From Streptomyces ferrugineus (GTDB taxonomy: Bacteria; Actinomycetota; Actinomycetes; Streptomycetales; Streptomycetaceae), in assembly GCF_015160855.1 (NCBI RefSeq), contig NZ_CP063373.1:2356001-2420000 (forward strand): DNA of 64,000 nt. Direction: 5' to 3'. Within the stretch, counting starts at the first letter, position 1. Every line of letters begins with the position of its first letter. The position numbers and the translations under genes were made by a program. Below the pieces are notes generated by a model. It saw only the letters and a list, made by a program, of their open reading frames with translations, did not search any database and was not told where the DNA came from. Shown piece by piece: positions 8,049-62,211 of this stretch.

Positions 8049-8076
8049 GCGCTGCTGACCGAGAACAGGAGTGCTC

Positions 8077-8433
8077 ATGCCGCAGATCACCGTCGACCAC
8101 TCGAAGACGCTCTCCTTCGACCGGGAGGGTTTCGCCCGGGACCTGCACACCGCGACCGTCGAGATCGCGGCGGCCAGGCCGGAGGCGTGCAAGACCCAGT
8201 TCCGGCCCAGTGAGTACACGGCGTTCGGCTACGAGGACCCCGCGGAGCAGGGCCACGCGGTCGTCCATGTCACGCTCGGCCTGCTCGCCGGCCGCACCGA
8301 CGAGGTCAAGGCACAGCTGACCGAGGCGGTACTGGAGCTGCTGCGCAAGCACATCGAGGACGACGGCGTCGTGCTGCACGCCTCCGCCGAGGTACGCGAT
8401 CTCGACCCGTCGTACCGCAAGTTCGAACGCTAG
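8077..8433 (+). CDS. 5-carboxymethyl-2-hydroxymuconate isomerase-like tautomerase
   Basis: A 118-residue protein of the tautomerase superfamily, CHMI-like. The mature protein would begin with Pro (MPQITVDH), the catalytic N-terminal proline of this superfamily. AGGAG (8067-8071) precedes the ATG at 8077; a GTG at 8071 overlaps it and is less likely. CHMI acts in homoprotocatechuate degradation, but no such pathway genes are nearby, so the real substrate is unknown. The stop codon TAG lies inside the 12-base string TAGGCCCTGTCG, which matches the end of the MITE-like element at 13184-13324. It converges with the TetR gene, 10 bp away. Confidence 0.8.
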   Translation: MPQITVDHSKTLSFDREGFARDLHTATVEIAAARPEACKTQFRPSEYTAFGYEDPAEQGHAVVHVTLGLLAGRTDEVKAQLTEAVLELLRKHIEDDGVVLHASAEVRDLDPSYRKFER

Positions 8434-8448
8434 GCCCTGTCGGCTAGG
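8431..8448. repeat. Solo MITE-end fragment flanked by GCTAGG repeats
   Basis: TAGGCCCTGTCG at 8431-8442 equals the outer end of the element ending at 13324. It is bracketed by GCTAGG (8429-8434 and 8443-8448). It supplies the tautomerase stop and abuts the TetR stop at 8444-8446. It may be an excision footprint or a relic. Confidence 0.5.
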
Positions 8449-9133
8449 ACGCCAGCGAGATCAGCCGGGCGACCAGGTCGCTGAACGGGCCGTCGGTCGG
8501 CTCGTCCTTGAGCATGCGGCGCAGCAGTGCGCCCATCTCCTCGTCGGAGGCGGCGCTGACGGCGGCCAGTGCGGCGAAGTCGTGCACGAGCTGGACCTCC
8601 AGCTCGGCGCGCGGGATGCGCCGGCCGTCCAGCCAGATCAGCGCCGTCGACTCGGCGAGCGAAATCCACGTGCGGACGACCAGCTCCAGTCGCGCGGGCG
8701 GATCCGTCACGTCCAGATGCGAAAGGATCTGGACATACGCGGCCTGCCGCACGGAGTCGATCAGCGCGTTCGTCGCGGTGGAGCCGACGGCCGGACCGCC
8801 GCGCATCAGCGCCGAGAAACCGGGGCCGTGCTCGTCGACGAAGTCGAAGAACCGCCGCATCACCCGCAGCAGCCGCGCCCCCAGCGGGCCTTCGTGCGGC
8901 TCCACGAAGCGGTCCGCCAGGTCCTCCGAGGCACGCTTCAACGCGGCCTCGTACAAGCTGAGTTTGCCGGGGAAGTAGTGATAGACCAGCGGACGTGAGA
9001 TGCCCGCGGTGGACGCTATCTCGTCGATGGAGACATCGTCGGGCGAGCGCTGGCTGAACAGTTCGAGGGCGACGCCGATCAACTGCTGCCGCCGCTCCTC
9101 GACTCCCATTCTTCGCCGTACCCCGGTAGTCAT
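8444..9133 (-). CDS. TetR-family transcriptional regulator
   Basis: A 229-residue repressor. The N-terminal helix-turn-helix DVSIDEIASTAGISRPLVYHYFPGK (about residues 30-54) is typical of TetR, and the rest is an all-helical ligand-binding and dimerisation domain. It is the last gene of an apparent operon on the minus strand after the metal-dependent hydrolase and ferredoxin reductase genes. It probably controls that operon and itself. Two perfect 12-bp palindromes lie just upstream (9167-9188). The ligand is unknown; given the neighbours, a fatty or hydrophobic compound is a guess. Confidence 0.9.
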   Translation of the reverse strand: MTTGVRRRMGVEERRQQLIGVALELFSQRSPDDVSIDEIASTAGISRPLVYHYFPGKLSLYEAALKRASEDLADRFVEPHEGPLGARLLRVMRRFFDFVDEHGPGFSALMRGGPAVGSTATNALIDSVRQAAYVQILSHLDVTDPPARLELVVRTWISLAESTALIWLDGRRIPRAELEVQLVHDFAALAAVSAASDEEMGALLRRMLKDEPTDGPFSDLVARLISLAS

Positions 9134-9166
9134 GCGAACACCTTACCGATCGATTCCGGCCCCGAA

Positions 9167-9188
9167 CGGTCCGGACCGACCATGGTCG
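9167..9188. promoter_or_regulatory. Twin palindromes, candidate TetR operator
   Basis: CGGTCCGGACCG (9167-9178) and CGACCATGGTCG (9177-9188) are each perfect 12-bp palindromes overlapping by 2 bp. They lie in the 56-bp gap between the reductase stop and the tetR start. Position and symmetry suggest autoregulation; direct binding is inference. Confidence 0.5.
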
Positions 9189-9189
9189 T

Positions 9190-10215
9190 TCACATGTCCA
9201 GTACGAGTCGATCACCTCGCGCCCGTGACACACAGATCAGCATCGAGTCGCCCCGCTCCGCCTCGGTCAGCAACTCGTCCCGGTGATCCACCTCGCCCTC
9301 CAGCACCCGCTGTTGGCAGGTCCCGCAGAAACCCTGCTCGCAGGAGTACGCGGTGTCCGGCAGCTCGGCGCGTACGGCGGCCAGCACCGACGAGCCCTCC
9401 GGCACGGTCAACGTCCGCCCGCTGCGCCGCAGTTCGACCTCGAACGCACCGCCGCCCGCCGAGGCGCGCGGCGCGAAGCGCTCCAGACGAACCCGGGGGA
9501 ACCGCTCCTCCACCGCGGCCATCAACCCCTCCGGCCCACAGCAGTAGACGGCAGCGCCCTCGGGCACCTCCGCGAGGAGACCGTCGAGATCCGGCACCCC
9601 CTCCACGACGCTCACCCGGTCCCCGCCCAGCTTCTCGACGTCCTCCAGGAACGGCATCGAGGCCCGGTCCCGCCCGCAGTACAGCAACCGCCACCGCACG
9701 CCCTCGCCCAGCGCCCGCAGCATCGGCAGCACGGGCGTGATCCCGATGCCGCCCGCGACGAAGACGTACGACTCGGCCCCGACGAGCGGGAATCGGTTCC
9801 GCGGCCCCCGCACCTGAAGCTCCATGCCCTCCCGCACCTGCTCGTGCACCTCGCGCGAGCCGCCTCGCCCGTCCGGGACCAGCCGGGTCGCCACGGTGTA
9901 CGACGAGGTGTCCTCCGGGTCCCCGCACAGCGAGTACTGCCGCACCAGACCCGACGGCAGCACCAGGTCGAGATGCGCGCCGGGCTCCCAGCGCGGCAGG
10001 TCGCGCCCCTCGAGGCGCAGTTGTACGACGCCCTCGGCGACCTCCTCGCGCGAGGCCACCAGCACACGCAGCGCCCGCGACCGGGGCCGCCCGGAGACCG
10101 GCTCGTCCAGGGCGGGCATCGGCCACAGCGGCGAGACCCGGATACGGCGCCGCATCGCCCGCCGGGCGAGCAGGGCGGCACCGGCGACGGCCGCGACGGT
10201 CCTCAGCTTCGGCAT
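9190..10215 (-). CDS. Ferredoxin--NAD(P)H reductase-type oxidoreductase with 2Fe-2S domain
   Basis: A 341-residue phthalate-dioxygenase-reductase-like flavoprotein. In order: an N-terminal segment with a short hydrophobic stretch, an FAD/FMN-binding barrel with RQYSLCGDP (~110), an NAD-binding domain with GGIGITPVLPML (~165-175) and CCGPEGLM, and a C-terminal plant-type ferredoxin domain with the C-x4-C-x2-C motif CEQGFCGTC plus a later Cys in LICVS. It moves electrons from NAD(P)H through flavin to the 2Fe-2S centre. The ATG overlaps the upstream hydrolase stop by one base (TGATG), so the two are translationally coupled and probably work together, perhaps with the di-iron-like hydrolase as terminal oxidase. 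Confidence 0.9.
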   Translation of the reverse strand: MPKLRTVAAVAGAALLARRAMRRRIRVSPLWPMPALDEPVSGRPRSRALRVLVASREEVAEGVVQLRLEGRDLPRWEPGAHLDLVLPSGLVRQYSLCGDPEDTSSYTVATRLVPDGRGGSREVHEQVREGMELQVRGPRNRFPLVGAESYVFVAGGIGITPVLPMLRALGEGVRWRLLYCGRDRASMPFLEDVEKLGGDRVSVVEGVPDLDGLLAEVPEGAAVYCCGPEGLMAAVEERFPRVRLERFAPRASAGGGAFEVELRRSGRTLTVPEGSSVLAAVRAELPDTAYSCEQGFCGTCQQRVLEGEVDHRDELLTEAERGDSMLICVSRARGDRLVLDM

Positions 10216-33738: not shown

Positions 33739-33785
33739 GCGGGTTCGTTGTGGCTGGTCGCGCAGTTCCCCGCGCCCCTTGGGGA
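33739..33785 (-). repeat. Dispersed repeat copy (reverse orientation)
   Basis: The minus strand reads CCCCAAGGGGCGCGGGG, AACTGCGCGACCAGCC, then AACGAACCCGC. It starts 3 bp beyond the stop codon of the FAD oxidoreductase gene, with the hairpin end toward that gene. It is also downstream of the convergent regulator gene. Confidence 0.85.
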
Positions 33786-49732: not shown

Positions 49733-51121
49733 TCAGTCGTGCGAGTGGAGCGGCTTGCCCGCAAGGGCCAGGTGGGCCTCGCCGAGCGCCTCGTTCTGCG
49801 TCGGGTGGGCGTGGACGAGCTGGGCGACCTCGGCCGGCAGGGCCTCCCAGTTGTAGATCAGCTGGGCCTCTCCGACCTGCTCGCCCATGCGGTCGCCGAC
49901 CATGTGGACGCCGACCACCGCGCCGTCCTTGACCTGGACGAGCTTGATCTCGCCCGCGGTGTTCAGGATCTTGCTCTTGCCGTTGCCCGCCAGGTTGTAC
50001 TTCAGAGCGACGACCTTGTCCGCGCCGTAGATCTCCTTGGCCTTGGCCTCGGTGATGCCGACGGAGGCGACCTCCGGGTGGCAGTAGGTCACGCGGGGGA
50101 CACCGTCGTAGTCGATCGGAACGGTCTTCAGACCGGCCAGACGCTCCGCCACCAGGATGCCCTCGGCGAAGCCGACGTGCGCGAGCTGGAGGGTCGGGAC
50201 GAGGTCACCGACGGCGGAGATGGTCGGGACGTTGGTCCGCATGTACTCGTCGACGAGGACGTAGCCGCGGTCCATGGCGACGCCCTGCTCCTCGTAGCCG
50301 AGACCGGCGGAGACCGGGCCCCGGCCGACGGCGACCAGCAGGACCTCGGCCTCGAACTCCTTGCCGTCGGCGAGGGTGACCTTGACGCCGTCGGCGGTGT
50401 ACTCGGCCTTCTGGAAGAAGGTGCCGAGGCTGAACTTGATGCCGCGCTTGCGGAAGGCGCGCTCGAGAAGCTTCGAGGAGTTCTCGTCCTCGACCGGGAC
50501 GAGGTGCTTCAGGCCCTCGATGACGGTGACCTCGGAGCCGAAGGACTTCCAGGCGGAGGCGAACTCGACGCCGATGACGCCGCCGCCCAGGATGATCGCG
50601 GACTTCGGCACGCGGTCCAGGACGAGGGCGTGGTCCGAGGAGATGATGCGGTTGCCGTCGATCTCCAGGCCGGGCAGCGACTTCGGCACGGAGCCGGTCG
50701 CCAGCAGGACGTGGCGGCCCTGGACGCGCCGGCCGTTGACGTCGACGGAGGTCGGGGAGGACAGCCGGCCCTCGCCCTCGATGTACGTCACCTTGCGGGA
50801 GGCCACGAGGCCCTGGAGGCCCTTGTACAGGCCGGCGATCACGCCGTCCTTGTACTTGTGGACCCCGGCGATGTCGATGCCCTCGAAAGAGGCCTTCACA
50901 CCGAACTGCTCGCTCTCGCGGGCCTGGTCGGCGATCTCGCCCGCGTGCAGCAGGGCCTTGGTGGGGATGCAGCCCCGGTGCAGGCAGGTGCCGCCGACCT
51001 TGTCCTTCTCGATCAGGGCGACGTCCAGGCCCAGCTGCGCCCCGCGCAGGGCCGCGGCGTAACCGCCACTACCACCGCCGAGGATCACTAGGTCGAAAAC
51101 GGTGCTGGCGTCGTTCGCCAC
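49733..51121 (-). CDS. lpdA: Dihydrolipoyl dehydrogenase (E3)
   Basis: 462 residues from GTG at 51121, preceded by GGAGGAC. FAD motif LVILGGGSGGYAAALRGAQLGL, redox disulfide Cys46/Cys51 (GGTCLHRGCIPTKA), NAD motif AIILGGGVIGVEFASAW and active-site base HAHPTQNEALGEA. It reoxidises E2 dihydrolipoyl groups and makes NADH. It lies 59 bp upstream of sucB on the same strand, forming lpdA-sucB. The pepA gene upstream is separated by a strong terminator, so this operon has its own promoter in 51122-51327. Confidence 0.97.
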   Translation of the reverse strand: MANDASTVFDLVILGGGSGGYAAALRGAQLGLDVALIEKDKVGGTCLHRGCIPTKALLHAGEIADQARESEQFGVKASFEGIDIAGVHKYKDGVIAGLYKGLQGLVASRKVTYIEGEGRLSSPTSVDVNGRRVQGRHVLLATGSVPKSLPGLEIDGNRIISSDHALVLDRVPKSAIILGGGVIGVEFASAWKSFGSEVTVIEGLKHLVPVEDENSSKLLERAFRKRGIKFSLGTFFQKAEYTADGVKVTLADGKEFEAEVLLVAVGRGPVSAGLGYEEQGVAMDRGYVLVDEYMRTNVPTISAVGDLVPTLQLAHVGFAEGILVAERLAGLKTVPIDYDGVPRVTYCHPEVASVGITEAKAKEIYGADKVVALKYNLAGNGKSKILNTAGEIKLVQVKDGAVVGVHMVGDRMGEQVGEAQLIYNWEALPAEVAQLVHAHPTQNEALGEAHLALAGKPLHSHD

Positions 51122-51327
51122 GTCACGTCCTCCATGCATGTGCGCCGTACGCCGGTCAGCGTTGACCGGTCGGCGGCTGGTGTCCGGCCGCTCTTTCTTC
51201 GGCCCTGTGGTGGGGGCCCTGTCCTGCCGAGCCCCATCTTCGCACTTGTCCACACCGAACGAGACGCCGGGCCGGTGTGTGAGACGCCCCACGTTCGGTT
51301 GAGCGCGCGTACAAGACGCGCATACAA

Positions 51328-51364
51328 GAGGGGGCTCCGCCCTACCCGCGCGCGGAGCCCCCTC
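51328..51364 (-). terminator. pepA terminator
   Basis: A perfect 13-bp stem (51328-51340 and 51352-51364) with an 11-nt loop, 14 bp past the pepA stop. Confidence 0.85.
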
Positions 51365-51378
51365 GGTCGTCGACGACG

Positions 51379-52920
51379 TCAGCCCAGGTCGCCCGAAGCC
51401 GTCAGCTCGGCCAGCCGGACCAGCGTCCGCACGGCGGACCCCGTACCACCCTTCGGCGTGTACCCGAAGGGACCGCCCTCGTTGAACGCCGGCCCCGCGA
51501 TGTCCAGGTGCGCCCAGGTGACCCCCTCGCCCACGAACTCCCGCAGGAAGAGACCGGCGACCAGCCCGCCGCCCATCCGCTCACCCATGTTGGCGATGTC
51601 GGCGGTCGGCGAGTCCATCCCCTTGCGCAGGTGCTCCGGCAGCGGCATCGGCCAGGACGGCTCCCCGACCTCCTCGGCCGCCTCCACGATCGCGGAGCGG
51701 AACGCGTCGTCGTTGGCCATCACGCCGAACGTGCGGTTGCCGAGCGCCAGCACCATCGCGCCGGTGAGCGTGGCCACGTCCACGATCGCGTCCGGCTTCT
51801 CCTGCGACGCCGCCCACAGCGCGTCGGCGAGCACCAGCCGGCCCTCGGCGTCCGTGTTGAGTACCTCCACGGTCTTGCCGCTGTACATGCGCAGCACGTC
51901 ACCCGGGCGCACCGCGGACCCCGACGGCATGTTCTCGGCGAGCGCCAGCCAGCCGGTGACGTTCACCCGGAGCCCGAGGCGCGCGGCGGCGACGACGGCG
52001 GCGAACACGGCGGCCGCGCCGCTCATGTCGCACTTCATCGTCTCGTTGTGCCCGGCCGGCTTCAGCGAGATGCCGCCCGAGTCGTAGGTGATGCCCTTGC
52101 CGACCAGGGCGAGGTGCTTGTCCGCCTTGGAGTGGGTGTACGACAGCTTCACCAGCCGCGGGCCCGCCGCCGACCCGGAGCCGACGCCGAGGATGCCGCC
52201 GTAGCCGCCCTTGGTCAGCGCCTTCTCGTCGAGCACCTGCACCTTGATGCCGTGCTCCTTGGCGGCCGCCGCGGCGACCGCGGCGAACGACTCGGGGTTG
52301 AGGTCGTTGGGCGGGGTGTTGATCAGGTCGCGGGCGCGGTTGAGCTCCTCGGAGACGGCGGTGGCGCGCTCGATGGCGGCCTTGTGCTCCTTGTCGCGGG
52401 GCTTGGCGCCGAGCAGCGCGGCCTCGGCGAGGGGCGCCTTGCCGTTCTTCTTGCCCTGGGCGCCCTTGCCGGCGTCCTTGGCGTTCTCCTTGTAGGCGTC
52501 GAAGGCGTACGCCCCGAGCAGCACGCCCTCGGCGACGGCGCCGACGTCACCGGAGTCGCCCAGCGGCAGCGCGAACGCGGCCTTCTTGGAACCGGCGAGG
52601 GCGCGGGCGGCGACACCGGCGGCCTTGCGCAGGGCCTCGCCGTCGTACGCGGCGTCCTTCTCGGGCGCGGCACCCAGCCCCACCGCCACCACGAGCGGGG
52701 CCTTGAAGCCGGCTGGTGCGGGGAGCTTCGTCACCTCGCCCTCGGCACCCGAGGCACCGAGGGTCTCCAGGACGCCGGCGAGCCTGCCGTCGTACGCCTT
52801 GTCCACGGGCTCGGCGCCCGGTGCGACGACGGGGCCGTCGGCGCCCTTGGCGACACCGATCACGATCGCGTCGGCCCGCAGGCCGGGCGCCGCGGCGGTG
52901 CTGAGAGTGAGAGCAGTCAC
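51379..52920 (-). CDS. pepA: Leucyl aminopeptidase (M17)
   Basis: 513 residues from GTG at 52920. The N-terminal ~170 residues are a variable domain. The M17 catalytic domain has GKGITYDSGGISLKP with the metal-binding Lys/Asp, MKCDMSGAAAV and the diagnostic VLNTDAEGRLVLADAL (Asp, Glu and catalytic Arg). It works as a hexamer with two divalent metals, releasing N-terminal residues in peptide turnover. Divergent from the exopolysaccharide-type cluster across a 332-bp region. Confidence 0.96.
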   Translation of the reverse strand: MTALTLSTAAAPGLRADAIVIGVAKGADGPVVAPGAEPVDKAYDGRLAGVLETLGASGAEGEVTKLPAPAGFKAPLVVAVGLGAAPEKDAAYDGEALRKAAGVAARALAGSKKAAFALPLGDSGDVGAVAEGVLLGAYAFDAYKENAKDAGKGAQGKKNGKAPLAEAALLGAKPRDKEHKAAIERATAVSEELNRARDLINTPPNDLNPESFAAVAAAAAKEHGIKVQVLDEKALTKGGYGGILGVGSGSAAGPRLVKLSYTHSKADKHLALVGKGITYDSGGISLKPAGHNETMKCDMSGAAAVFAAVVAAARLGLRVNVTGWLALAENMPSGSAVRPGDVLRMYSGKTVEVLNTDAEGRLVLADALWAASQEKPDAIVDVATLTGAMVLALGNRTFGVMANDDAFRSAIVEAAEEVGEPSWPMPLPEHLRKGMDSPTADIANMGERMGGGLVAGLFLREFVGEGVTWAHLDIAGPAFNEGGPFGYTPKGGTGSAVRTLVRLAELTASGDLG

Positions 52921-53010
52921 GGTGGTGAAATCTCGCTTCCGATGTGAAGTTGCGATGGCCGATTGGTGTGGGTCGACCGGGCCCGACGGCCGACCCTAGT
53001 TCCGTCCTGC

Positions 53011-53040
53011 GGGTGCGGTATCGGCGGGTGCGGTATCAGC
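53011..53040. repeat. 15-bp tandem direct repeat
   Basis: GGGTGCGGTATCGGC (53011-53025) is followed at once by GGGTGCGGTATCAGC (53026-53040), with one difference. It is a recent duplication or paired binding site in the pepA promoter region. Confidence 0.75.
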
Positions 53041-53079
53041 GGGGCCTTCCCCGGTACGGCGAACACTCGGGATGAGCCT

Positions 53080-53102
53080 ACGCTCGTGTGAGCGTTCGCT
53101 CA
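53080..53102. promoter_or_regulatory. Overlapping inverted repeats, candidate operator of the exopolysaccharide-type cluster
   Basis: ACGCTC-n4-GAGCGT (53080-53095) overlaps TGAGCG-TT-CGCTCA (53089-53102), sharing the GAGCG arm. It is ~150 bp before the deacetylase start. The three GAGCG/CGCTC arms could form alternate dimer sites for a TetR-like repressor; the regulator is unknown. Confidence 0.5.
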
Positions 53103-53252
53103 TTCCTGCGGGCGTTCACCTGTCGGTGGCGTCGCGGCCATTTCTTGATCCCCGCGCCCGGTGAGCTGAGTCACACTCGTCTGGATCCGGTGAGCCGCCG
53201 GCTTGCCGCTTTGCATGATTTCCACGGGGATCTTCTGGGGGGAAGGCAATCA

Positions 53253-55289
53253 ATGGCGCACACCGCGCACAGATGGAGAAATGCTGCCGCCGTGCTCACG
53301 GCCGCCGGCCTGCTGGCCCTGGGGCCGGCAGCACCCGGCGCCGCGGCCGCCGGGGAACCGCGCATCGATCTCAGGGTGCTGGTCGTGGACAACGGCGACA
53401 GCCCCGTGCGGGCCATCGCCGCCCAGCTCGAGAGCACCGGCATCCCGTACACCACCGTCGACCTGAACGACGCCGACCGCCCGACCATCACCGACACGTT
53501 CCTCAGCGACACGGTGAACGGCGTACCGCGCGCCAGGTTCCAGGGCGTCGTCCTGCCCAACGAGACCCCGTTCGGCGCGGGATCCGCCGAACAGACCGCG
53601 TTGGAGAGCTACGAACGGACCTACGGCATCCCGCAGGTCGACGCCTACACCTGGGCCCACCCCGGAGTCGGCCTCGACCACACCGGTGACGGCGGCTGGG
53701 CCGGCACCCTCGACGGGCGCGAGGCGTCCGTCACGACCGAGGGAAGGACGGGGTACTTCGGCTATCTCGACGGCGCCTTCACGTTCGAGGACAACGACCC
53801 GGCCGTACCGGAGAGTTACGGCTTCGTCGCCCGGCCCCGCACCGGCTTCACCAGCTATGTCGACATTCCCGTGCCCAGCGGCTCCGGGCGCGGCAGCCTG
53901 ATCGGCGAGTACCGCCACGACGGCCGCCGCGAACTCGTGGTGACCTTCGCCTACAACGAACACCAGCAGCAGTTCCGGGTGCTGGCCCGCGGCATCGTCG
54001 AATGGCTCACCCAGGGCGTGCACCTGGGGCGGGCGCGCAACTACTTCGCCGTGCACGTCGACGACGTCTTCGCGCCCGACAGCCGCTGGGACACCGAACG
54101 CAACTGCACGCCCGGTGACTTCGACTGCGCGGGCGGCGACGGCGAGGGGACCACGCCGATCCGGATGACCGCGGCCGACGCGCAGTACGCGGCCCAGTGG
54201 CAGCGCGAGCGCGGGTTCACGCTGGACATGGTCTACAACGCCGGCTCCGGAGAGGAGTGGAAGGCCCAGCACGGCGGCACCGACGCCCTCACCGACCGGC
54301 TGCTCGCCGACAGGGCGCGGTACCGCTGGATCAACCACACCTACACGCACCCGTTCCTCGGCTGCGTCCAGGACACCTCCACCGTCCCCTGGAGCTGTGC
54401 CGAGAACGCCGACGGCTCGACGCGGTACATGAGCCGCGCGGACATCTCGGCAGAGATCAGGAACAACTACAACTGGGGCGTCGCCAAGGGCCTCCCGCTC
54501 GACCGCGCGGAACTCGTGACCGGCGAGCACTCCGGCCTGCGGACCCTGCCGCAGCAGCCCGACGACAACCCCCACCTCGCCGGCGCCCTCGCCGACAACG
54601 GCATCCGCTGGCTCGCCTCCGACAACTCCCGGGAACCCGAGCAGCGTTCGCTCGGCACCGGCACCCGCACCGTGCCCCGCCACCCGATGAACGTCTACTA
54701 CAACGCGGGCACCGACGAGGAGATGGCCGACGAGTACAACTGGATCTACACCTCGGCAGCCGACGGCGGCAGCGGCGTCTGCACGACGAACCCCGCCGCG
54801 ACCTGCCTGGACGAGCCGCTGGACACCGCCACCGGCTACCGCGAGCACATCGTCCCGCAGGAGGCCCGCACCGCCCTCGGGCATGTGATCGGCAACGACC
54901 CGCGCCCGCACTACGCCCACCAGTCCAACCTGGCCGAGGACCGCACGCTGTACCCGGTCCTGGACCGGGTGCTCGCCGACTACCAGGCGCTCTTCGCCGA
55001 CAACACCCCGGTGCAGAACCTCGCGCAGAGCGCCATCGGCACCGAGCTCCAGCGCCGCGCCGCCTGGCGGACCGCGCTCGCGAACGGCTCCGTCACGGCG
55101 TACCGCATCGGCGACACCGTCACCGTCACCGCCCCGTCCGGGACACAGATCCCGGTGACGGCACCGGAGGGCACCACCAAGCAACGCCTCATCGGCACCA
55201 CCGCGTTCGGTACGCCGTACGCGGGCAGGCGCTCGGCCTGGACCACGCCGGAGCCACTGCAGTCGGCAGTAACGCTGAAGCTGCCTTAG
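53253..55289 (+). CDS. Secreted polysaccharide-deacetylase-like protein (Pel-cluster type)
   Basis: 678 residues from ATG at 53253, with GGAAGG upstream. The signal peptide ends near GAAAAGEP (~35). Residues ~38-250 look like a flavodoxin/GATase-like domain (IDLRVLVVDNGDSPVRAIAAQLE ... LVVTFAYNEHQQQF). Residues ~262-520 are NodB/CE4-like: NYFAVHVDDVFAP with Asp270/Asp271 and RWINHTYTHP with His362 and His366 (H-x3-H). These are the expected metal and base positions of a deacetylase. The combination resembles PelA without its hydrolase domain. It is followed by a PelF-like glycosyltransferase. The polymer is unknown. Confidence 0.8.
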   Translation: MAHTAHRWRNAAAVLTAAGLLALGPAAPGAAAAGEPRIDLRVLVVDNGDSPVRAIAAQLESTGIPYTTVDLNDADRPTITDTFLSDTVNGVPRARFQGVVLPNETPFGAGSAEQTALESYERTYGIPQVDAYTWAHPGVGLDHTGDGGWAGTLDGREASVTTEGRTGYFGYLDGAFTFEDNDPAVPESYGFVARPRTGFTSYVDIPVPSGSGRGSLIGEYRHDGRRELVVTFAYNEHQQQFRVLARGIVEWLTQGVHLGRARNYFAVHVDDVFAPDSRWDTERNCTPGDFDCAGGDGEGTTPIRMTAADAQYAAQWQRERGFTLDMVYNAGSGEEWKAQHGGTDALTDRLLADRARYRWINHTYTHPFLGCVQDTSTVPWSCAENADGSTRYMSRADISAEIRNNYNWGVAKGLPLDRAELVTGEHSGLRTLPQQPDDNPHLAGALADNGIRWLASDNSREPEQRSLGTGTRTVPRHPMNVYYNAGTDEEMADEYNWIYTSAADGGSGVCTTNPAATCLDEPLDTATGYREHIVPQEARTALGHVIGNDPRPHYAHQSNLAEDRTLYPVLDRVLADYQALFADNTPVQNLAQSAIGTELQRRAAWRTALANGSVTAYRIGDTVTVTAPSGTQIPVTAPEGTTKQRLIGTTAFGTPYAGRRSAWTTPEPLQSAVTLKLP

Positions 55290-55293
55290 CCGG

Positions 55294-55345
55294 AGCGCCC
55301 CGTCAGGGGCGCGGGGAACTGCGCGACAAGCCACGACGAACCCGC
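55294..55345 (+). repeat. Dispersed repeat copy, short form
   Basis: GAGCGCCCCGTCAGGGGCGC, GGGGAACTGCGCGACAAGCC, then ACGACGAACCCGCC, starting 4 bp after the deacetylase stop. A partial extra tail with CGCGGTTCCCCCC follows. The hairpin end faces the gene. Confidence 0.9.
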
Positions 55346-55406
55346 CGTCGGGCACGATCGCGCGGTTCCCCCCACAGATTCCGCAAACAGGGGGAGCCGC
55401 GCAGCG

Positions 55407-56915
55407 ATGCACGTCACCATGCTCACCGAAGGCACCTATCCGCACGTCCACGGCGGGGTCAGCACCTGGTGCGACCAGCTCGTCAAGGGCATGCCGGAGG
55501 TCGACTTCCACATCGTCTCGCTCACCGGGACCGGCCGCGAACCCGTCGCCTGGGAGCTGCCGCCGAACGTCTGCCGGCACACCTCCGTGCCGACCTGGGG
55601 CCCGCGTCCGGGGCGCAGGAGAGCGCCGTACGGCCGGGCCCGTCGCCGTTTCACCGACGCCTACGAGCGCTTCCTGCTCTCCTTCCTCGACCCCGCCGCC
55701 CGCCGCGACTTCGGCGACGCCCTGGACGAACTGGCCCGACTCGCCCGCGACGGACGCCTGTCGGCGGCCCTGCGCACGGAATCAGCGCTGCGGTCGCTGA
55801 TGTGGATCTGGACGATGCCGCATCTGCCGACCGCGGCCGCCCGCCCCACCGTCCACGACGCCCTGACCGCCACCGACCTGCTGGAACACGCCCTGCGCCC
55901 GCTCGGTACCCGCGTCCCGGAGGACTCCGTCGCCCACGCCGTCAGCAGCGGCCTCGCCACCCTCCCGGCCCTCGCCGCCCGCCGGCTGGACGGCGTCCCC
56001 TTCCTCCTCACCGAGCACGGCATCTATCTCCGCGAGCGCTACCTCGGCTACCGCAGCGCCGCCCAGCGCTGGCCCGTGAAGGCGTTCATGCTCGGCTTCT
56101 ACCGCGAGCTGAACTCCCACGGATACCGCACGGCCGACCTGATCACCCCGTGCAACCAGTACAACCGCCGCTGGGAGGAGCGCGGCGGCGCCGACCCCGA
56201 CAAGATCCGTACCGTCTACAACGGCGTCGACCCGCACGCCTTCCCGCACGCCGGCCCCGAGCCCGACGTCCCCACCCTCACCTGGTGCGGCCGCGTCGAC
56301 CCCATCAAGGACCTGGAGACCCTGCTGCGGGCCTACGCCATGGTCCGCGCCGAGCTCCCGGAGACCCGTCTGCGCCTGTTCGGCCCCGTCCCGCCCGGCG
56401 GCGAGGCCTACCGCACCAAGCTGGAGAAGCTCGCCGCGGAGCTGGGCGTGCGGGACGGCCTGACGTTCGAGGGCCGCGTCAGCGAGGTCTGGCGAGCTTA
56501 CGCGGCCGGCCACATCGTCATGCTGTCCTCCATCTCCGAAGGCTTCCCGTTCTCCATCATCGAGGCCATGTCCTGCGGCCGTACGACCGTCTCGACGGAC
56601 GTCGGGGGAGTGCGCGAGGCCGTCGGGGACACCGGCCTCGTCGTCCCGCCGCGCGAGCCGGAGAAGATGGCGGCCGCCGCGCTCACCCTCCTCCACGACG
56701 ACGAACGGCGCCTGACACTGGGCGAGTCGGCCCGCCGGCGCGTGATCGACCGCTTCACCCTGCGCCGCTCCGTGGACCACTTCCGGACGATCTACCAGGA
56801 GCTCGCGGGCAGCTGCGAGGTCTACGAGCCCACCCTCGAAACGGTCGCCGACTGGACCCTCGAGCTGCGCGACCCCTGGTACGAGAAGGTCGCGACGGAC
56901 GGAACCGGCTGGTGA
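55407..56915 (+). CDS. GT4 glycosyltransferase, PelF-like (DUF3492)
   Basis: 502 residues, cytoplasmic. The start MHVTMLTEGTYPHVHGGVSTW is the PelF hallmark. A DUF3492 N-terminal domain (~1-260) and a GT-B C-terminal domain follow, with GRVDPIKDLETLLRAY, LTFEGRVSEVWRAYAAGHI and the E-x7-E motif in SEGFPFSIIEAMSCG. PelF uses UDP-GalNAc/GlcNAc to build the Pel polymer in Pseudomonas; the donor here is unknown. GGGGAG precedes the ATG. Its stop overlaps the next gene's GTG by 4 nt (GTGA), so the two are coupled. Confidence 0.92.
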   Translation: MHVTMLTEGTYPHVHGGVSTWCDQLVKGMPEVDFHIVSLTGTGREPVAWELPPNVCRHTSVPTWGPRPGRRRAPYGRARRRFTDAYERFLLSFLDPAARRDFGDALDELARLARDGRLSAALRTESALRSLMWIWTMPHLPTAAARPTVHDALTATDLLEHALRPLGTRVPEDSVAHAVSSGLATLPALAARRLDGVPFLLTEHGIYLRERYLGYRSAAQRWPVKAFMLGFYRELNSHGYRTADLITPCNQYNRRWEERGGADPDKIRTVYNGVDPHAFPHAGPEPDVPTLTWCGRVDPIKDLETLLRAYAMVRAELPETRLRLFGPVPPGGEAYRTKLEKLAAELGVRDGLTFEGRVSEVWRAYAAGHIVMLSSISEGFPFSIIEAMSCGRTTVSTDVGGVREAVGDTGLVVPPREPEKMAAAALTLLHDDERRLTLGESARRRVIDRFTLRRSVDHFRTIYQELAGSCEVYEPTLETVADWTLELRDPWYEKVATDGTGW

Positions 56916-58339
56916 GCGGAAGCATCTGGATGCCGCCCGGCGCCCGCCCCGACACCCTGCCCGTCATCCCACACCAGCGCACCCGGCCCAGCTGGGCGCG
57001 GCCCGACCCGGTCGACGAACTCGCCGCCCGCCTCGACGACTTCATAGCCGCCGCCGTCCACCCCGACGAGATCGCCGCGCTGCTGGAGTCCGACGGCCTG
57101 TCCGACGACCAGATACGCGAGCGCTACGGCGTCAGGAACTCCTTCGCCCTCGCCGAGGAGTTGTACGAGCGGGGCGAGCGCCGCTATCCCGAGCCGGACG
57201 GCCCGGTTCCCGACCCCTGGCAGGTCGGACTGCTGGGCTGCCTCCTGCGCGGCCTGGTCTTCGCGCTCCCGGGCCTCGGCTACGTCCTCGGCGCCCCCCT
57301 CCTCGCCGGCCCGAGAGACGACTTCGGCCTCCCGGCGGGCACGGTCCCGCTACTGGCCGGCGCCCTGTGCGGCTGGACCTGGAACCAGGGGCTCGCTCAT
57401 CGGGCGTACTCCTGGCTGGGCCTGGGCGACCGCGCCGCCGCCCGCCGCTCGCTGCTGGCCGGCGCACCGGCGGGTGCACTGCTGGGCGCCCTGGTCGCGT
57501 TCGCCGTCACCGGCACGGCCGCCCCGACGGCACTCGCCTTCGCCGTCGGCCAGTCCTGCTACCTGGGCGCGGCGACGGTACTGCTGGTCATGGGCCGCGA
57601 GAGAGCTCTGCTGGCGGCCCTGCTGCCGATGGCGGCGGGCGCGGTGCTGGCGCTGGTCCATCCGGTGCCGGACGCGGCACGGCTCGTCCTCTTGCTGGTC
57701 TCGCTTGCCGCGGTCGCCTTTCTAGGCCTACGCGAGGTCGCGCCCCTCAAGGGGCGCGGGGAACTGCGCGACCAGCCCCCACGCACCCGCAGACAACCGA
57801 CAACAACGGCCCCCCACCTCACCGCATCCCTCCCATACGCCCTGTTCGGCCTGGCCACCGGCACCCTCGTGCTCTACGCGGCCGTCGGAGACACCTCCGC
57901 CGCCGTCGCCCTGACCCTCAGCATGGGCCCCGCCGAATGGCTCCTGTACCGCTTCCGCAGCGGCAGCCTCGCGGGCCTGCGCTCCAGCAGCACACCGAGG
58001 GCGTTCCGGCGGGCGACGGCGTTCACGGTCGTCGAATGCCTCGCCGTCTACCTGGCGGCCCTCCTGGCCCTCACCCTCGCCACCGGCGTCACCGATGTAC
58101 GCCTCGCCGATCTGCTCCTGCTCGGCGTCGTCCTGTGGACGGGCCTGCTGCTGCAGTCCTTCGGCGCGGTGCTCGGCGCGGCCGCGGTCTGCTCCGCCGC
58201 CGCCCTCGCCCAGACGATCGCCCTGGCCGCGCACCCGGGCAGCCCGCACTGGATCGGCCCGATCGTCCACGGCACCGCGGCGATCACCCAGGCCGCCCTG
58301 GTCTGCGCGCTGTTGGGGAGAGCGACGGCCCACCGATGA
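56912..58339 (+). CDS. Polytopic membrane protein of the Pel-like cluster
   Basis: 475 residues from the GTG at 56912, overlapping the PelF-like stop. About 100 cytoplasmic residues (with AARLDDFIAAAVHPDEIAALLESDGLSDDQIRERYGV) precede 10-12 membrane helices in two bundles. Between the bundles, residues ~276-294 are encoded by a dispersed-repeat copy (57738-57792) in frame, giving a charged loop. It may do the job of PelG, a flippase-like transporter, but sequence relation to PelG is not shown. Its stop overlaps the next start (ATGA). Confidence 0.8.
   Translation: MSGSIWMPPGARPDTLPVIPHQRTRPSWARPDPVDELAARLDDFIAAAVHPDEIAALLESDGLSDDQIRERYGVRNSFALAEELYERGERRYPEPDGPVPDPWQVGLLGCLLRGLVFALPGLGYVLGAPLLAGPRDDFGLPAGTVPLLAGALCGWTWNQGLAHRAYSWLGLGDRAAARRSLLAGAPAGALLGALVAFAVTGTAAPTALAFAVGQSCYLGAATVLLVMGRERALLAALLPMAAGAVLALVHPVPDAARLVLLLVSLAAVAFLGLREVAPLKGRGELRDQPPRTRRQPTTTAPHLTASLPYALFGLATGTLVLYAAVGDTSAAVALTLSMGPAEWLLYRFRSGSLAGLRSSSTPRAFRRATAFTVVECLAVYLAALLALTLATGVTDVRLADLLLLGVVLWTGLLLQSFGAVLGAAAVCSAAALAQTIALAAHPGSPHWIGPIVHGTAAITQAALVCALLGRATAHR
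57738..57792 (+). repeat. Dispersed repeat copy inside the membrane-protein gene
   Basis: GCGCCCCTCAAGGGGCGC, GGGGAACTGCGCGACCAGCC, then CACGCACCCGCAG, nearly intact and read in frame as a 19-residue loop (KGRGELRDQPPRTRRQ). This copy is close to the intergenic ones, so insertion looks recent. Confidence 0.88.
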
Positions 58340-58995
58340 ACGACCTGCTGATCCCCTACTACGAGCACCCGTCCGTCCGCCCCGCCGAATGGGAGGCGAT
58401 CATCGCGGCGGCGCCCCGCCTCTACGGGGTCGTGCTGAACCCGGCCAGCGGCCCCGGTGACGCGCCCGACCCGGCGTTCGCCGAGGTCGCGGCCCGGCTG
58501 CGGGCGGCGGGCGTGCGGGTGCTCGGCTACGCCGACACCGACTACGGCCGCCGCCCGCACACCGCCGTCGTCCAGGACATCGCGCGGCACCGCGACTGGT
58601 ACGGCGCGGACGGCGTCTTCCTCGACCAAGTCGCCGCGGGCCGTGCGGAGTTCCCGTACTACCGAGGGCTCGTGACGGCTGCCTGGGGCGCCGGCCGCGG
58701 CACGCTCGCCCTGAACCACGGCACCGCACCGCACCCGTCGTACGCCAGGATCGCCGACCTCCTGGTCACCTTCGAGGGCACCTGGGCCTCGTACACCCGG
58801 CTCGGCCCGCAGCCGTGGCGGGGCGGCGGCGGAGTACGGCTGTGCCACCTGGTGTACGGCGTCCCGGCCGGCGTCGACCCGGCGCGGGCGGCCCGCTCGC
58901 GGGGCGCCTCGGTGCACTGCGCGGTGCCGGGTGCGGGCGATCATCCGTGGGGCACGTTGCCGCACGCTCTGGCGTGCCGAGGGTCAGCCCAGTGA
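58336..58995 (+). CDS. Spherulation-specific family 4 / GH114-like protein
   Basis: 219 residues, starting in an ATGA overlap with the membrane-protein stop. A TIM-barrel-like pattern is seen: LIPYYEHPSVRPAEWEAIIA, LYGVVLNPASGPG, VRVLGYADTDYG, WYGADGVFLDQV (with a conserved Asp) and LLVTFEGTW. The family (spherulin 4; GH114 endo-alpha-1,4-polygalactosaminidase relatives) is the type of hydrolase fused in PelA. There is no signal peptide, which is odd for a hydrolase of an exported polymer; it may be cytoplasmic or leave by another route. It converges with cobS and overlaps it by 12 bp. Confidence 0.82.
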   Translation: MNDLLIPYYEHPSVRPAEWEAIIAAAPRLYGVVLNPASGPGDAPDPAFAEVAARLRAAGVRVLGYADTDYGRRPHTAVVQDIARHRDWYGADGVFLDQVAAGRAEFPYYRGLVTAAWGAGRGTLALNHGTAPHPSYARIADLLVTFEGTWASYTRLGPQPWRGGGGVRLCHLVYGVPAGVDPARAARSRGASVHCAVPGAGDHPWGTLPHALACRGSAQ

Positions 58996-59775
58996 CAGCA
59001 CCACGAGCGCGGTCGTCGCCGCCGTCTCCGCGAGGCCGCCGAAGACATCGCCGGTGACACCGCCGAAGCGGCGTACGCAGTGCCGCAGGAGGAGTTCGGC
59101 GGCGCCGAGCGCGGCCAGGACCGCGAGGGCGGTGCGGGCGAGGTCGTCCGTCCCCAGCAGCGCGCCCGCCGCGGCGGCGACGCCGGTCACCGCCAGGGCG
59201 ACGGCCACCGCGCCCGGTACCGGAACCACCCCGGCCACCGCGGCCCCCAGCCCCTCCGGGCGGGCCGCGGGCACGCCGGTGCGGGCGGCGAGGGTGAGCG
59301 CGAGGCGGGCGGCGGCGGCCGAGACGACGGTGGCGAGGGCACCCCGGGCCCATGAGCCGTCGTAGAGCTGTGCCAGCGCCGCGATCTGCGCGAGCAGCAC
59401 GAGGACGAGCGCGATGACGCCGAACGGCCCGATGTCCGACTGCTTCATGATGCGCAGTGCGTCCTCGGCCGGCTTGCCGCTGCCGAGCCCGTCGGCGGTG
59501 TCGGCGAGCCCGTCGAGATGCAGCCCCCGGGTGAGCGCGGCGGGGACGGCGGCGGCCGCGACGGCGGCGAGGAGGGGGCCGGCGCCGAGGAGGAGCAGGA
59601 CGAGGGCCACGGCGGCGGCCGCGCAGCCCAGCACCACCCCGACCAGCGGGGCGCACAGCATTCCGCCGCGCGCCGTCTCACGGTCCCAGCGGCTCACCTC
59701 GACGGGGAGCACGCTCAGGGTGCCGAAGGCGAAGCGGAGACCGGGCAGGCGCGGCGGGGGCGGGGGCGTGGTCAC
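58984..59775 (-). CDS. cobS: Adenosylcobinamide-GDP ribazoletransferase
   Basis: 263 residues from GTG at 59775. The family motif GLHLDGLADTADGLGSGKPAEDALRIMKQSDIGPFGVIAL (~95-135) is clear. Several hydrophobic helices embed it in the membrane. It joins adenosylcobinamide-GDP with alpha-ribazole, the last step of B12 assembly (adenosylcobalamin or its 5'-phosphate). Its partner CobT is encoded about 1.1 kb away with a membrane-protein gene between. No cobalamin riboswitch is visible upstream. Confidence 0.95.
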   Translation of the reverse strand: MTTPPPPPRLPGLRFAFGTLSVLPVEVSRWDRETARGGMLCAPLVGVVLGCAAAAVALVLLLLGAGPLLAAVAAAAVPAALTRGLHLDGLADTADGLGSGKPAEDALRIMKQSDIGPFGVIALVLVLLAQIAALAQLYDGSWARGALATVVSAAAARLALTLAARTGVPAARPEGLGAAVAGVVPVPGAVAVALAVTGVAAAAGALLGTDDLARTALAVLAALGAAELLLRHCVRRFGGVTGDVFGGLAETAATTALVVLSLG

Positions 59776-59842
59776 CCGCGCAGACTAGCCCGCAGGCCGT
59801 ACCCGCCAGGCAGCCCACCCCTGCCACGGACACACTGGGAAC

Positions 59843-60607
59843 ATGGGTGACTGGTGGCAGCAGAACATCGTCGAACCGGGGAAGCTCCCCCTTCTCCTGG
59901 CCCTGACCGCCTTCGTGGTGACCTTCGTGGTCACCCGCCTCATCACCCGTCTGATCCGGGCCGGCAAAGGGCCCTTCCGCAACATCGAGACCGGCTCCGT
60001 GCACATCCACCACGTCGTCCCCGGAGTCGTCCTCACGATCATCGGAGGCTTCGGCGCGGTCGCCGGCGGCCAGCGTGGCTTCCCCGCGTCCGTGGCCGCT
60101 GTGATCTTCGGGATCGGCGCGGGCCTCGTCATGGACGAGTTCGCGCTGATCCTGCACCTCCACGACGTCTACTGGACCGAGGCCGGCCGCAAGAGCGTCG
60201 AGGTGGTGGTGCTCACCGCCGCCTTGGTCGGCCTGGTCCTCCTCGGCTTCGCGCCCTTCGGCGTCAACGACCTCAGCGACGACGAGCTGCAGGACCGCGG
60301 GTCGGTGATCACCACGGTCATCGGGAACTTCCTCCTCGCCCTGATCGCCCTGGCCAAGGGCAAGGCCCGGATCGCGATCTTCGGGGTCATCGTCCCCTTC
60401 ATCGCCCTGTTCGGCGCCGTCCGCCTGGCCCGTCCGGACTCCCCGTGGGCGAAACGGCTCTACCGCCGCCGCCCGCGCGCCCGCGCCAAGGCCCAGTTGC
60501 GCGCCTACCACCACGACCGGCGCTGGGCGGGCCCCAGCCGCAGGTTTCAGGACTGGATCGGCGGCGCGCCCGACGCGGACCCGGCCCGGGCCCTGGAACG
60601 CCGCTGA
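59843..60607 (+). CDS. Integral membrane protein, conserved hypothetical
   Basis: 254 residues with about five hydrophobic segments (~15-35, 58-80, 85-105, 125-145, 165-200). Notable are NIETGSVHIHHVVPGVVLTIIGG and GLVMDEFALILHLHDVYW, with His-rich and acidic residues near the membrane, reminiscent of proteins that bind lipid head groups or metal. The basic tail has many Arg. It is inserted between cobS and cobT on the opposite strand. Function unknown. Confidence 0.85.
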   Translation: MGDWWQQNIVEPGKLPLLLALTAFVVTFVVTRLITRLIRAGKGPFRNIETGSVHIHHVVPGVVLTIIGGFGAVAGGQRGFPASVAAVIFGIGAGLVMDEFALILHLHDVYWTEAGRKSVEVVVLTAALVGLVLLGFAPFGVNDLSDDELQDRGSVITTVIGNFLLALIALAKGKARIAIFGVIVPFIALFGAVRLARPDSPWAKRLYRRRPRARAKAQLRAYHHDRRWAGPSRRFQDWIGGAPDADPARALERR

Positions 60608-60868: not shown

Positions 60869-61996
60869 CTAGTCGACCTCGGACGCCTCCGGCACCTCGG
60901 CCGCGCCCAGGACCTCCCCGTCCGCTGCCGCCTCCGCCGTCTCCGACTCCTTCGGCCTCTCCGGCAGCTCCGCCGCCAGCGCCGCCGCGGCCTGCACCGT
61001 CGGCAGGGCCAGCAGCCCACCGGCGCCCTCGCCGACCTTCACACCCTGGGCGAGCACCGGCTCCAGGGCCATCCGGTCCAGCGCCTTCGCCTGCCCCGGC
61101 TCCCCGCTGTCGTGCGCGGCCAGCCACCAGTCCGGCGCCCGGAACGCGATCCGCTGCCCCACCAGCGCACAGGCGGCCACCACGACGCCGTCCAGCACCA
61201 CCGGCAGTTTGCGCACCGCGCACTGGAGCAGGAACCCGGTGATCGCCGCGAGATCGGCACCGCCCACCGTCGCGAGCAGCTGAAGCTGATCGCCGAGCAC
61301 GGGCCGGGCCCGCCGCAGCGCGTCCCGGATCGCCGCGCACTTGCGCATCCACGCGAGGTCGTCGATGGCCAGGCCGCCGCGCCCGGTGACCACGGACGCG
61401 TCCGTCCCGCACAGCGCGGCGACCAGCACGCCCGCCGCCGTGGTCCCGCCGACGCTCACATCGCCGAGCACCACCAGATCCGTACCGGAGTCGGCCTCCT
61501 CGTCGGCCACCGCCACCCCGGCCCGGAACGCGGCCTCGGCCTCCGCCGGCGTCACCGCGTCCTCGATGTCGATACGGCCGCTGCCGCGCCGCACCCGATG
61601 CCGTACGACCGCCTCCGGCAGCGACTCCGGGTCGCAGTCCAGCGCCATGTCGACGACCCGCACCGCAACCCCGAGCCGCCGCGCCAGCACCGACACGGGC
61701 CGGCCGCCCTCGAGGATCTCCCGCACCAACTCCCCGGCGCTGCCCGCGGGCCGCGCCGACACCTCCAGCTCGGCGATGCCATGGTCACCGGCGAACAACA
61801 CGACCCGCGGCTGCTCGATCGGCCGCACCGGCACGGCCGACTGCGCCGCCGCCAGCCACTCACCCAGTTCGTCGAGGCGGCCCAGCGCCCCGGGCGGCAC
61901 GACCTGACGCTCACGGCGCGCCTCGGCGTCACGGCGCACCCCACCGTCGGGGCGCTCGATCAGGTCGGAGAAGTCGTCGAGATTAAGCGAGCTCAT
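60869..61996 (-). CDS. cobT: Nicotinate-nucleotide--dimethylbenzimidazole phosphoribosyltransferase
   Basis: 375 residues from ATG at 61996 (MSSLNLDDFSDLI); an earlier ATG would add 14. CobT motifs are LGRLDELGEWLAAAQ, VVLFAGDHGIAELEVSA, LVVLGDVSVGGTTAAGVLVAAL and the catalytic Glu region VKVGEGAGG near the C-terminus. It makes alpha-ribazole phosphate for CobS. The last ~30 residues are an acidic Ala/Glu tail not needed for the fold. Oriented with cobS and cobU, but each is separated from the next by an unrelated plus-strand gene. Confidence 0.95.
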   Translation of the reverse strand: MSSLNLDDFSDLIERPDGGVRRDAEARRERQVVPPGALGRLDELGEWLAAAQSAVPVRPIEQPRVVLFAGDHGIAELEVSARPAGSAGELVREILEGGRPVSVLARRLGVAVRVVDMALDCDPESLPEAVVRHRVRRGSGRIDIEDAVTPAEAEAAFRAGVAVADEEADSGTDLVVLGDVSVGGTTAAGVLVAALCGTDASVVTGRGGLAIDDLAWMRKCAAIRDALRRARPVLGDQLQLLATVGGADLAAITGFLLQCAVRKLPVVLDGVVVAACALVGQRIAFRAPDWWLAAHDSGEPGQAKALDRMALEPVLAQGVKVGEGAGGLLALPTVQAAAALAAELPERPKESETAEAAADGEVLGAAEVPEASEVD

Positions 61997-62211
61997 TCGC
62001 CGAACAGTACCGGCACCGGTCGAACAGAGCAGCGCCACATGGCCACCACGGGCTCCGCCACGTCAGCCCCCTCTCCGCGCGACGTCGTTGCACCCAAGAT
62101 CGTCATCCCATATGTTCCGTTTCGCAATGGATTGTCGGGGCATGCTCGCACGGTCTCGCACCGCCCTTGCCGTACGCCCTGTCGTACTCCCCCCACGCCC
62201 GGGAGCCGCCC

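Follow-up and report, generated by a model that had tools for sequence, protein, structure and literature searches.

A probable Pel/galactosaminogalactan-type locus in Streptomyces ferrugineus with a PelF glycosyltransferase and a candidate PelG derivative

Galactosaminogalactan serves moulds as a biofilm adhesive, and its cluster in Aspergillus consists of gtb3, agd3, ega3, sph3, and uge3. Operons containing agd3 have also been described in bacteria, where the gene is accompanied by a glycosyltransferase, a multi-spanning membrane protein, and often a GH114 gene, with spherulin-4 in some Actinobacteria (Bamford et al. 2020, PMC7229062); the discussion of the same paper supports a bacterial origin for the fungal cluster. 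Because these bacterial operons were published in 2020, a cluster of the kind described here is known in outline.

The locus lies in a window of 64,000 nucleotides (the whole stretch analysed, contig C1, positions 2356001-2420000) of the Streptomyces ferrugineus genome (G000), which is 9.96 Mb long in one contig. Its four genes, called A, F, M, and S below, and their neighbours are:

51379-52920, minus strand: M17 leucyl-aminopeptidase gene (pepA), upstream neighbour
53253-55289, plus strand: gene A, 678 aa, predicted secreted Agd3-like (CE18/CBM87-type) polysaccharide deacetylase
55407-56915, plus strand: gene F, 502 aa, PelF-type GT4 glycosyltransferase
56912-58339, plus strand: gene M, 475 aa with a GTG start, membrane protein with multiple spans, probably a divergent PelG that has an additional domain at its N-terminus
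57005-57184, plus strand: conserved N-terminal domain of M, approximately residues 32-91, delimited from the alignment, comparison with the paralog M2, hydropathy, and gene fusions
58336-58995, plus strand: gene S, 219 aa, spherulin-4/GH135-like hydrolase without an evident signal peptide
58984-59775, minus strand: cobS, downstream neighbour, its 3' end overlapping the 3' end of S
60869-62038, minus strand: DBI_PRT gene, downstream, beyond cobS

The arrangement originally reported from this DNA, four plus-strand genes of which the last three are joined by 4-nt overlaps, is confirmed by the coordinates (4 nt at both F/M and M/S, with a gap of 117 nt between A and F). With the bacterial agd3 operons the window locus shares an Agd3 homolog with CE18 motifs and a glycosyltransferase with a multi-spanning membrane protein, but it lacks the GH114 gene that is common there; the bacterial operon section of that paper is silent on any kinship to PelG, on PelF-M fusions, and on the location of the spherulin-4 protein (PMC7229062). 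With the Aspergillus cluster it shares an Agd3-type deacetylase, an Sph3-type hydrolase, and a GT4 synthase with a membrane part; however, the synthase and its membrane part are here encoded separately, neither an epimerase nor a GH114 gene is present at the window locus, and the membrane anchor that Sph3 is reported to have (PMC12054363) is missing from S. The Gram-positive pelDEA(DA)FG operon (PMC7112168) has in common with it PelF, a probably PelG-related protein, and a deacetylase without a hydrolase domain, whereas the window locus has no adjacent PelD or PelE, its deacetylase is CE18-like, and M carries an extra N-terminal domain and gives no direct match to PelG.

Because the flanks are the M17 leucyl-aminopeptidase gene and cobS, no Pel-type accessory gene stands directly beside A-F-M-S, and neither PelD nor PelE was found at the locus when these flanking genes were examined, as had been noted. 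Searched for across the whole genome, the PelD GGDEF domain (PelD_GGDEF) gave no match in S. ferrugineus, but it gave none in the control genomes either, so this negative carries no weight. Outer-membrane export by PelB and PelC is not expected in a Gram-positive cell.

Some other sequence elements occur in the region. Window positions 50000-60000 had no Rfam match. A 21-base interspersed repeat has three exact copies in the window, at 33758-33778 (minus strand), at 55306-55326 (plus strand) between A and F, and at 57751-57771 (plus strand) inside M, where it encodes part of the loop after the sixth hydrophobic segment; the genome has 48 exact copies and 58 at no more than one mismatch, and the reversed pattern has none. 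Approximately 80 bases upstream of A lies a palindrome-like GTGA-N-TCAC element (53161-53174), a pattern present in 33 of 78 A upstream regions as compared to 1.4 in mononucleotide shuffles, although this enrichment is only a hint because the upstream sequences are related. A reading of an upstream palindrome as a BldD site was dropped owing to its misfit to the BldD consensus.

The deacetylase had been described as CE4-like and, together with the hydrolase, as one half of a PelA protein split into two genes. By itself, A scored 20.2 bits against Pfam Agd3_CE, under the cut-off of 27.6, and its single sequence matched no PDB chain in phmmer. For a profile of eight A homologs, Agd3 (6NWZ, E 9.3e-9) was the sole PDB match at E ≤1, and no better alignment with an unrelated NodB family was seen. 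Catalytic positions were transferred from Agd3 (described in PMC7229062) by profile alignment, with the HxxxH motif and the last His (the CM4 His) placed by local pattern only; on this basis D270, D271, H362, H366, and H556 are kept in all 91 aligned rows and R476 in 90 of the 91. PelA is assigned to CE21 and is without the Arg found in CE18 (PMC12022489), and because it has the adjacent Asp-Asp and an Arg at 476, A fits CE18 and not CE21. Judged by its sequence, A is an Agd3-like (CE18) deacetylase rather than a plain CE4 enzyme. Hydropathy in the first 45 residues exceeded 1.6 in 86 of 92 A proteins and in none of 96 F proteins.

The last gene product, first described as GH114/spherulin-4-like, belongs with the second of these names and gave no GH114 match. 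S scored 104 bits against Pfam Spherulin4 (cut-off 30.2) and matched the PDB spherulin-4 (Sph3) structures 5c5g/5d6t at E 2-3e-10. Residues D97 and E147 align with an Asp and a Glu that are conserved in the Sph3 structures, whose catalytic pair is described in PMC12054363. Each of the two residues is retained in 90 of 91 rows; the one row that differs is a paralog in locus L048. Judged by its sequence, S is a spherulin-4/GH135 protein; because the catalytic Asp and Glu are kept, S looks active, and its predicted substrate is acetylated alpha-1,4-GalNAc polymer.

A reduced Pel locus with PelA split into separate deacetylase and hydrolase genes would account for the presence of PelF, for the link between M and PelG set out below, and for the placement of the two activities on separate genes, but this last feature is not peculiar to a split PelA, as fungi likewise encode Agd3 and Sph3 by two distinct genes (PMC4817252). 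The family assignments point elsewhere: A has the adjacent Asp-Asp and Arg 476 of Agd3/CE18 rather than the CE21 pattern, S fits GH135, and no PelA-type match was seen for either protein, including to the PelA hydrolase. We therefore regard this part of the original prediction as quite improbable.

As had also been pointed out, S has no evident signal peptide when read from the start that overlaps M. In 82 of 93 S homologs the protein start and the barrel motif are no more than 9 residues apart, leaving no room for a signal peptide; the distance is 12-41 residues in 9, and the motif was not found in 2; homolog starts were picked as those nearest to the start of the window protein, and the motif distance is therefore partly circular. 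Hydropathy in the first 45 residues exceeded 1.6 in 45 of 93 S proteins and 71 of 77 GH114 proteins and did not separate S from secreted proteins; we attribute the passing S values to the first barrel strand. Location in the cytosol is probable for S.

S. ferrugineus has a second Spherulin4 gene, S2, in a paralogous cluster (L141, 3143-9312, within G000:C1:8545000-8563000) composed of F2, M2, an epimerase-like gene, S2, and a ThiF/rhodanese (moeZ) gene. This cluster resembles A-F-M-S in having a PelF-like F2, an M2 with the same N-terminal domain, and a spherulin-4 protein, and differs in having the epimerase-like gene in place of the deacetylase. S2 was found in 16 of 17 loci examined, with the catalytic Glu lost in 16 of 16 and the Asp kept in 9. 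Because the Glu is lost, S2 looks inactive, and these loci seem to have retained a GH135 protein without activity.

The glycosyltransferase was correctly named at the outset. F scored 166.5 bits against the NCBIfam PelF model NF038011 (cut-off 100), and its EX7E motif at 378-386 retains the first Glu in 95 of 96 rows and the second in all 96; by family assignment F is PelF. Its partner M matched nothing in Pfam, NCBIfam, or the PDB. By hydropathy, M starts with an N-terminal part of 107 residues, followed by 11 hydrophobic segments on family average and perhaps by a twelfth, against the 10-12 helices first proposed.

That F and M function as partners is well supported by gene fusions. Among 120 of the 188 PelF proteins with at least 649 aa, 63 carried an M domain (E ≤1e-3), as compared to none with reversed sequences; the M match starts past residue 300 in all 63 and spans at least 250 M positions in 57 of them. 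The conserved N-terminal domain, which precedes the membrane segments in M, is placed between the glycosyltransferase and membrane parts in the fusions. Carriers named among the matches listed include Anaerolineae, Caldilineaceae, and a Dormibacteraeota bacterium, and there are no fungal names among the 120, most of which are without a name. At least one of the 63, P0247 from Streptomyces olivoverticillatus, does not stay in frame near its junction, probably because of an artefactual frameshift.

The fusions also connect M to PelG. M was compared by hhalign with a set made up of 28 fusion C-termini and a single protein (L147) and gave 99.6%, or 96.3% for its membrane part alone; the same set compared with seven PelG sequences gave 94.4% over 371 colinear columns, or 89.8% with L147 removed, while controls (reversed alignments and cobS) gave at most 2.4%. 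In contrast, direct comparison with PelG gave 0.1% for M and 0.3% for 26 actinobacterial fusion domains. The proposed link between M and PelG thus runs through one bridging set of fusion domains, and the expected kinship of the membrane protein to PelG is probable by this indirect route but is not seen in direct comparison. Pfam PelG matches were seen in 3 of 9 fusions tested, at 17-26 bits and all under the cut-off of 29, and L147 combines a Pfam PelG score of 20.6 bits with the M N-terminal domain. With an offset of 73 residues, the starts of hydrophobic segments one to seven differ by no more than 4 residues between M and PelG. A separate PelG-like match elsewhere in the S. ferrugineus genome (3018767-3019132; 27.9 bits) is below the cut-off and looks unrelated.

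PelG itself exceeded the Pfam cut-off in only 2 of 198 actinobacterial genomes, both of one genus outside the class. In both (L168 and L169), PelF, PelG, and an A homolog (E ~1e-59) stand in a row, with a spherulin-4 gene nearby on the other strand. The A homolog of L168 is over the Pfam cut-offs for Agd3_CE and CBM87, a GAF/GGDEF protein (Pfam) is encoded upstream, and the spherulin-4 protein has a hydrophobic stretch at its start as judged by eye. A PelE-like reading of one L168 ORF was dropped for want of search support. A was present in 7 of the 198 genomes, and all 7 have a full M, a PelG, or an intermediate protein (in G041 on another contig), which suggests that M fills the place of PelG. 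In G041 (L167), one protein joins the M N-terminal domain to a weak PelG match, and a PelF protein whose C-terminal part matches HEAT repeats adjoins a HEAT-repeat protein. M is a probable divergent derivative of PelG. The PelF-M fusions, the link between fusions and PelG, and the occurrence of PelF-PelG beside Agd3-type and spherulin-4 genes argue for a Pel/galactosaminogalactan-type locus, and the NF038011 score, the fusion-bridged alignments, and L168/L169 support the earlier reading of these genes as an exopolysaccharide locus of Pel type, in which PelF is accompanied by a probable membrane-protein relative of PelG. Overall, the earlier observation is confirmed and its interpretation partly supported.

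When named genomes were scanned using 14 M homologs, at least 409 relatives came up, of which the best 80, Streptomyces loci, were kept. The genes do stay together in Streptomyces, as was originally to be checked: A-F-M occurs in this order in 77 of these best 80 of at least 409 relatives, the exceptions (L057, L080, L085) starting at or near a contig end, and S is present in 75, not being found at L110 and L121 (contig end) nor at L057, L095, and L100. The compactness noted earlier is accurate for the four genes here but is partly local, as a GH114 gene follows S in 64 of the best 80 of at least 409, and only 12 of the 80 pass from S to cobS without it, as in the window. A lipobox-like motif was present in 70 of 75 GH114 proteins. 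S. ferrugineus has one GH114 gene elsewhere, with no more than 34% identity to the cluster GH114 proteins. In a second Streptomyces lineage (L038, L040-L045), M and S are ~3 kb apart; the gap in L040 holds an epimerase gene, a nucleotidyltransferase gene, and a second epimerase-like gene, and L041 has a GH114 gene after S.

Because the best 80 were picked by similarity to M, the frequency of A without M cannot be read from them. Among 121 Streptomyces genomes, A was present in 59 and full-length M (E <1e-90) in 54, and all 54 have A (Fisher p 5e-29, uncorrected for relatedness); any M-type match was found in 113 of the 121, mostly the N-terminal domain alone. The 5 of 59 genomes with A and without full M are two fragmented assemblies (G239, G305), one with a decayed cluster (G277), and two with a lone divergent A (G258, G308). 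Two Streptomyces loci (L186, L187) have a lone divergent A homolog at ~7200-9600 with F, M, and S unmatched in the 18 kb around it, and L188 is a decayed cluster copy in which A, M, and S match in pieces only.

We propose, with a probability of roughly 0.7, that this is a Pel/galactosaminogalactan-type locus making a partly deacetylated alpha-1,4-GalNAc polymer. UDP-GalNAc would come from a chromosomal epimerase, for which the genome offers four galE genes over cut-off as candidates, and F would join it on the cytosolic face. M, as a divergent PelG with its own N-terminal domain, would pair with F, the N-terminal domain perhaps serving in docking, and would pass the chain through the membrane. 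Secreted A would then strip acetyl groups outside, giving a cationic, sticky polymer, while S would probably cut the acetylated chain inside the cell at the synthase, whether to release it, to control its length, or to clear it. Outside, the polymer could be trimmed by a GH114 protein in most of the relatives that were examined.

The same machine might instead make another amino-sugar polymer, for example one based on GlcNAc or on mixed galactose and GalNAc, since GT4 specificity is unreadable from sequence, fungal galactosaminogalactan is itself mixed (PMC8647848), and the locus has no epimerase. However, three independent families of alpha-1,4-galactosaminan enzymes meet in these loci (Agd3-, Sph3-, and GH114-type, the last in 64 of the best 80 of at least 409 relatives), and we consider another polymer unlikely, if less so than a split PelA. 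Soil-sharing fungi make galactosamine polymers. These would be a source of substrate if the genes were a degradative or foraging set directed at the polymers of other microbes, and both A and the GH114 proteins of relatives appear secreted; yet the tight linkage to a PelF-type synthase and membrane partner, and an S that is apparently not secreted, make foraging the least probable of these explanations, with very little to recommend it.

For the proposed GalNAc polymer locus, a more specific and distinctly tentative version can be put forward. PMC13254593 presents PelE as a hub for interactions and PelG as an exporter with 12 helices. F-M might form a minimal alpha-1,4-GalNAc synthase-translocase without PelD and PelE, occurring elsewhere as a single chain, in which the M N-terminal domain replaces the PelD/PelE scaffold and a cytosolic GH135 enzyme cuts the polymer before export; the PelF-M fusions might then be a bacterial counterpart of Gtb3. 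This version is possible but doubtful. In the open-licence literature searched, we found no statement on M as a relative of PelG, on PelF-M fusions, or on a cytosolic GH135 protein, and what appears new here is M as a probable PelG derivative, its fusions with PelF, and a probably cytosolic hydrolase.

The M family, which has no library match and is full-length in 54 of 121 Streptomyces genomes, can now be seen as the likely PelG-type partner of PelF. With the reduced F-M form, and with the fusions that occur in nature, synthesis and export could be studied without PelD and PelE. Why loci of this kind should contain hydrolases becomes testable through a hydrolase that looks catalytically intact and is apparently cytosolic. 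The locus points to a cationic galactosamine polymer, which many Streptomyces might use at their surface or in pellets, and it may offer bacterial comparators for the poorly understood fungal synthase.
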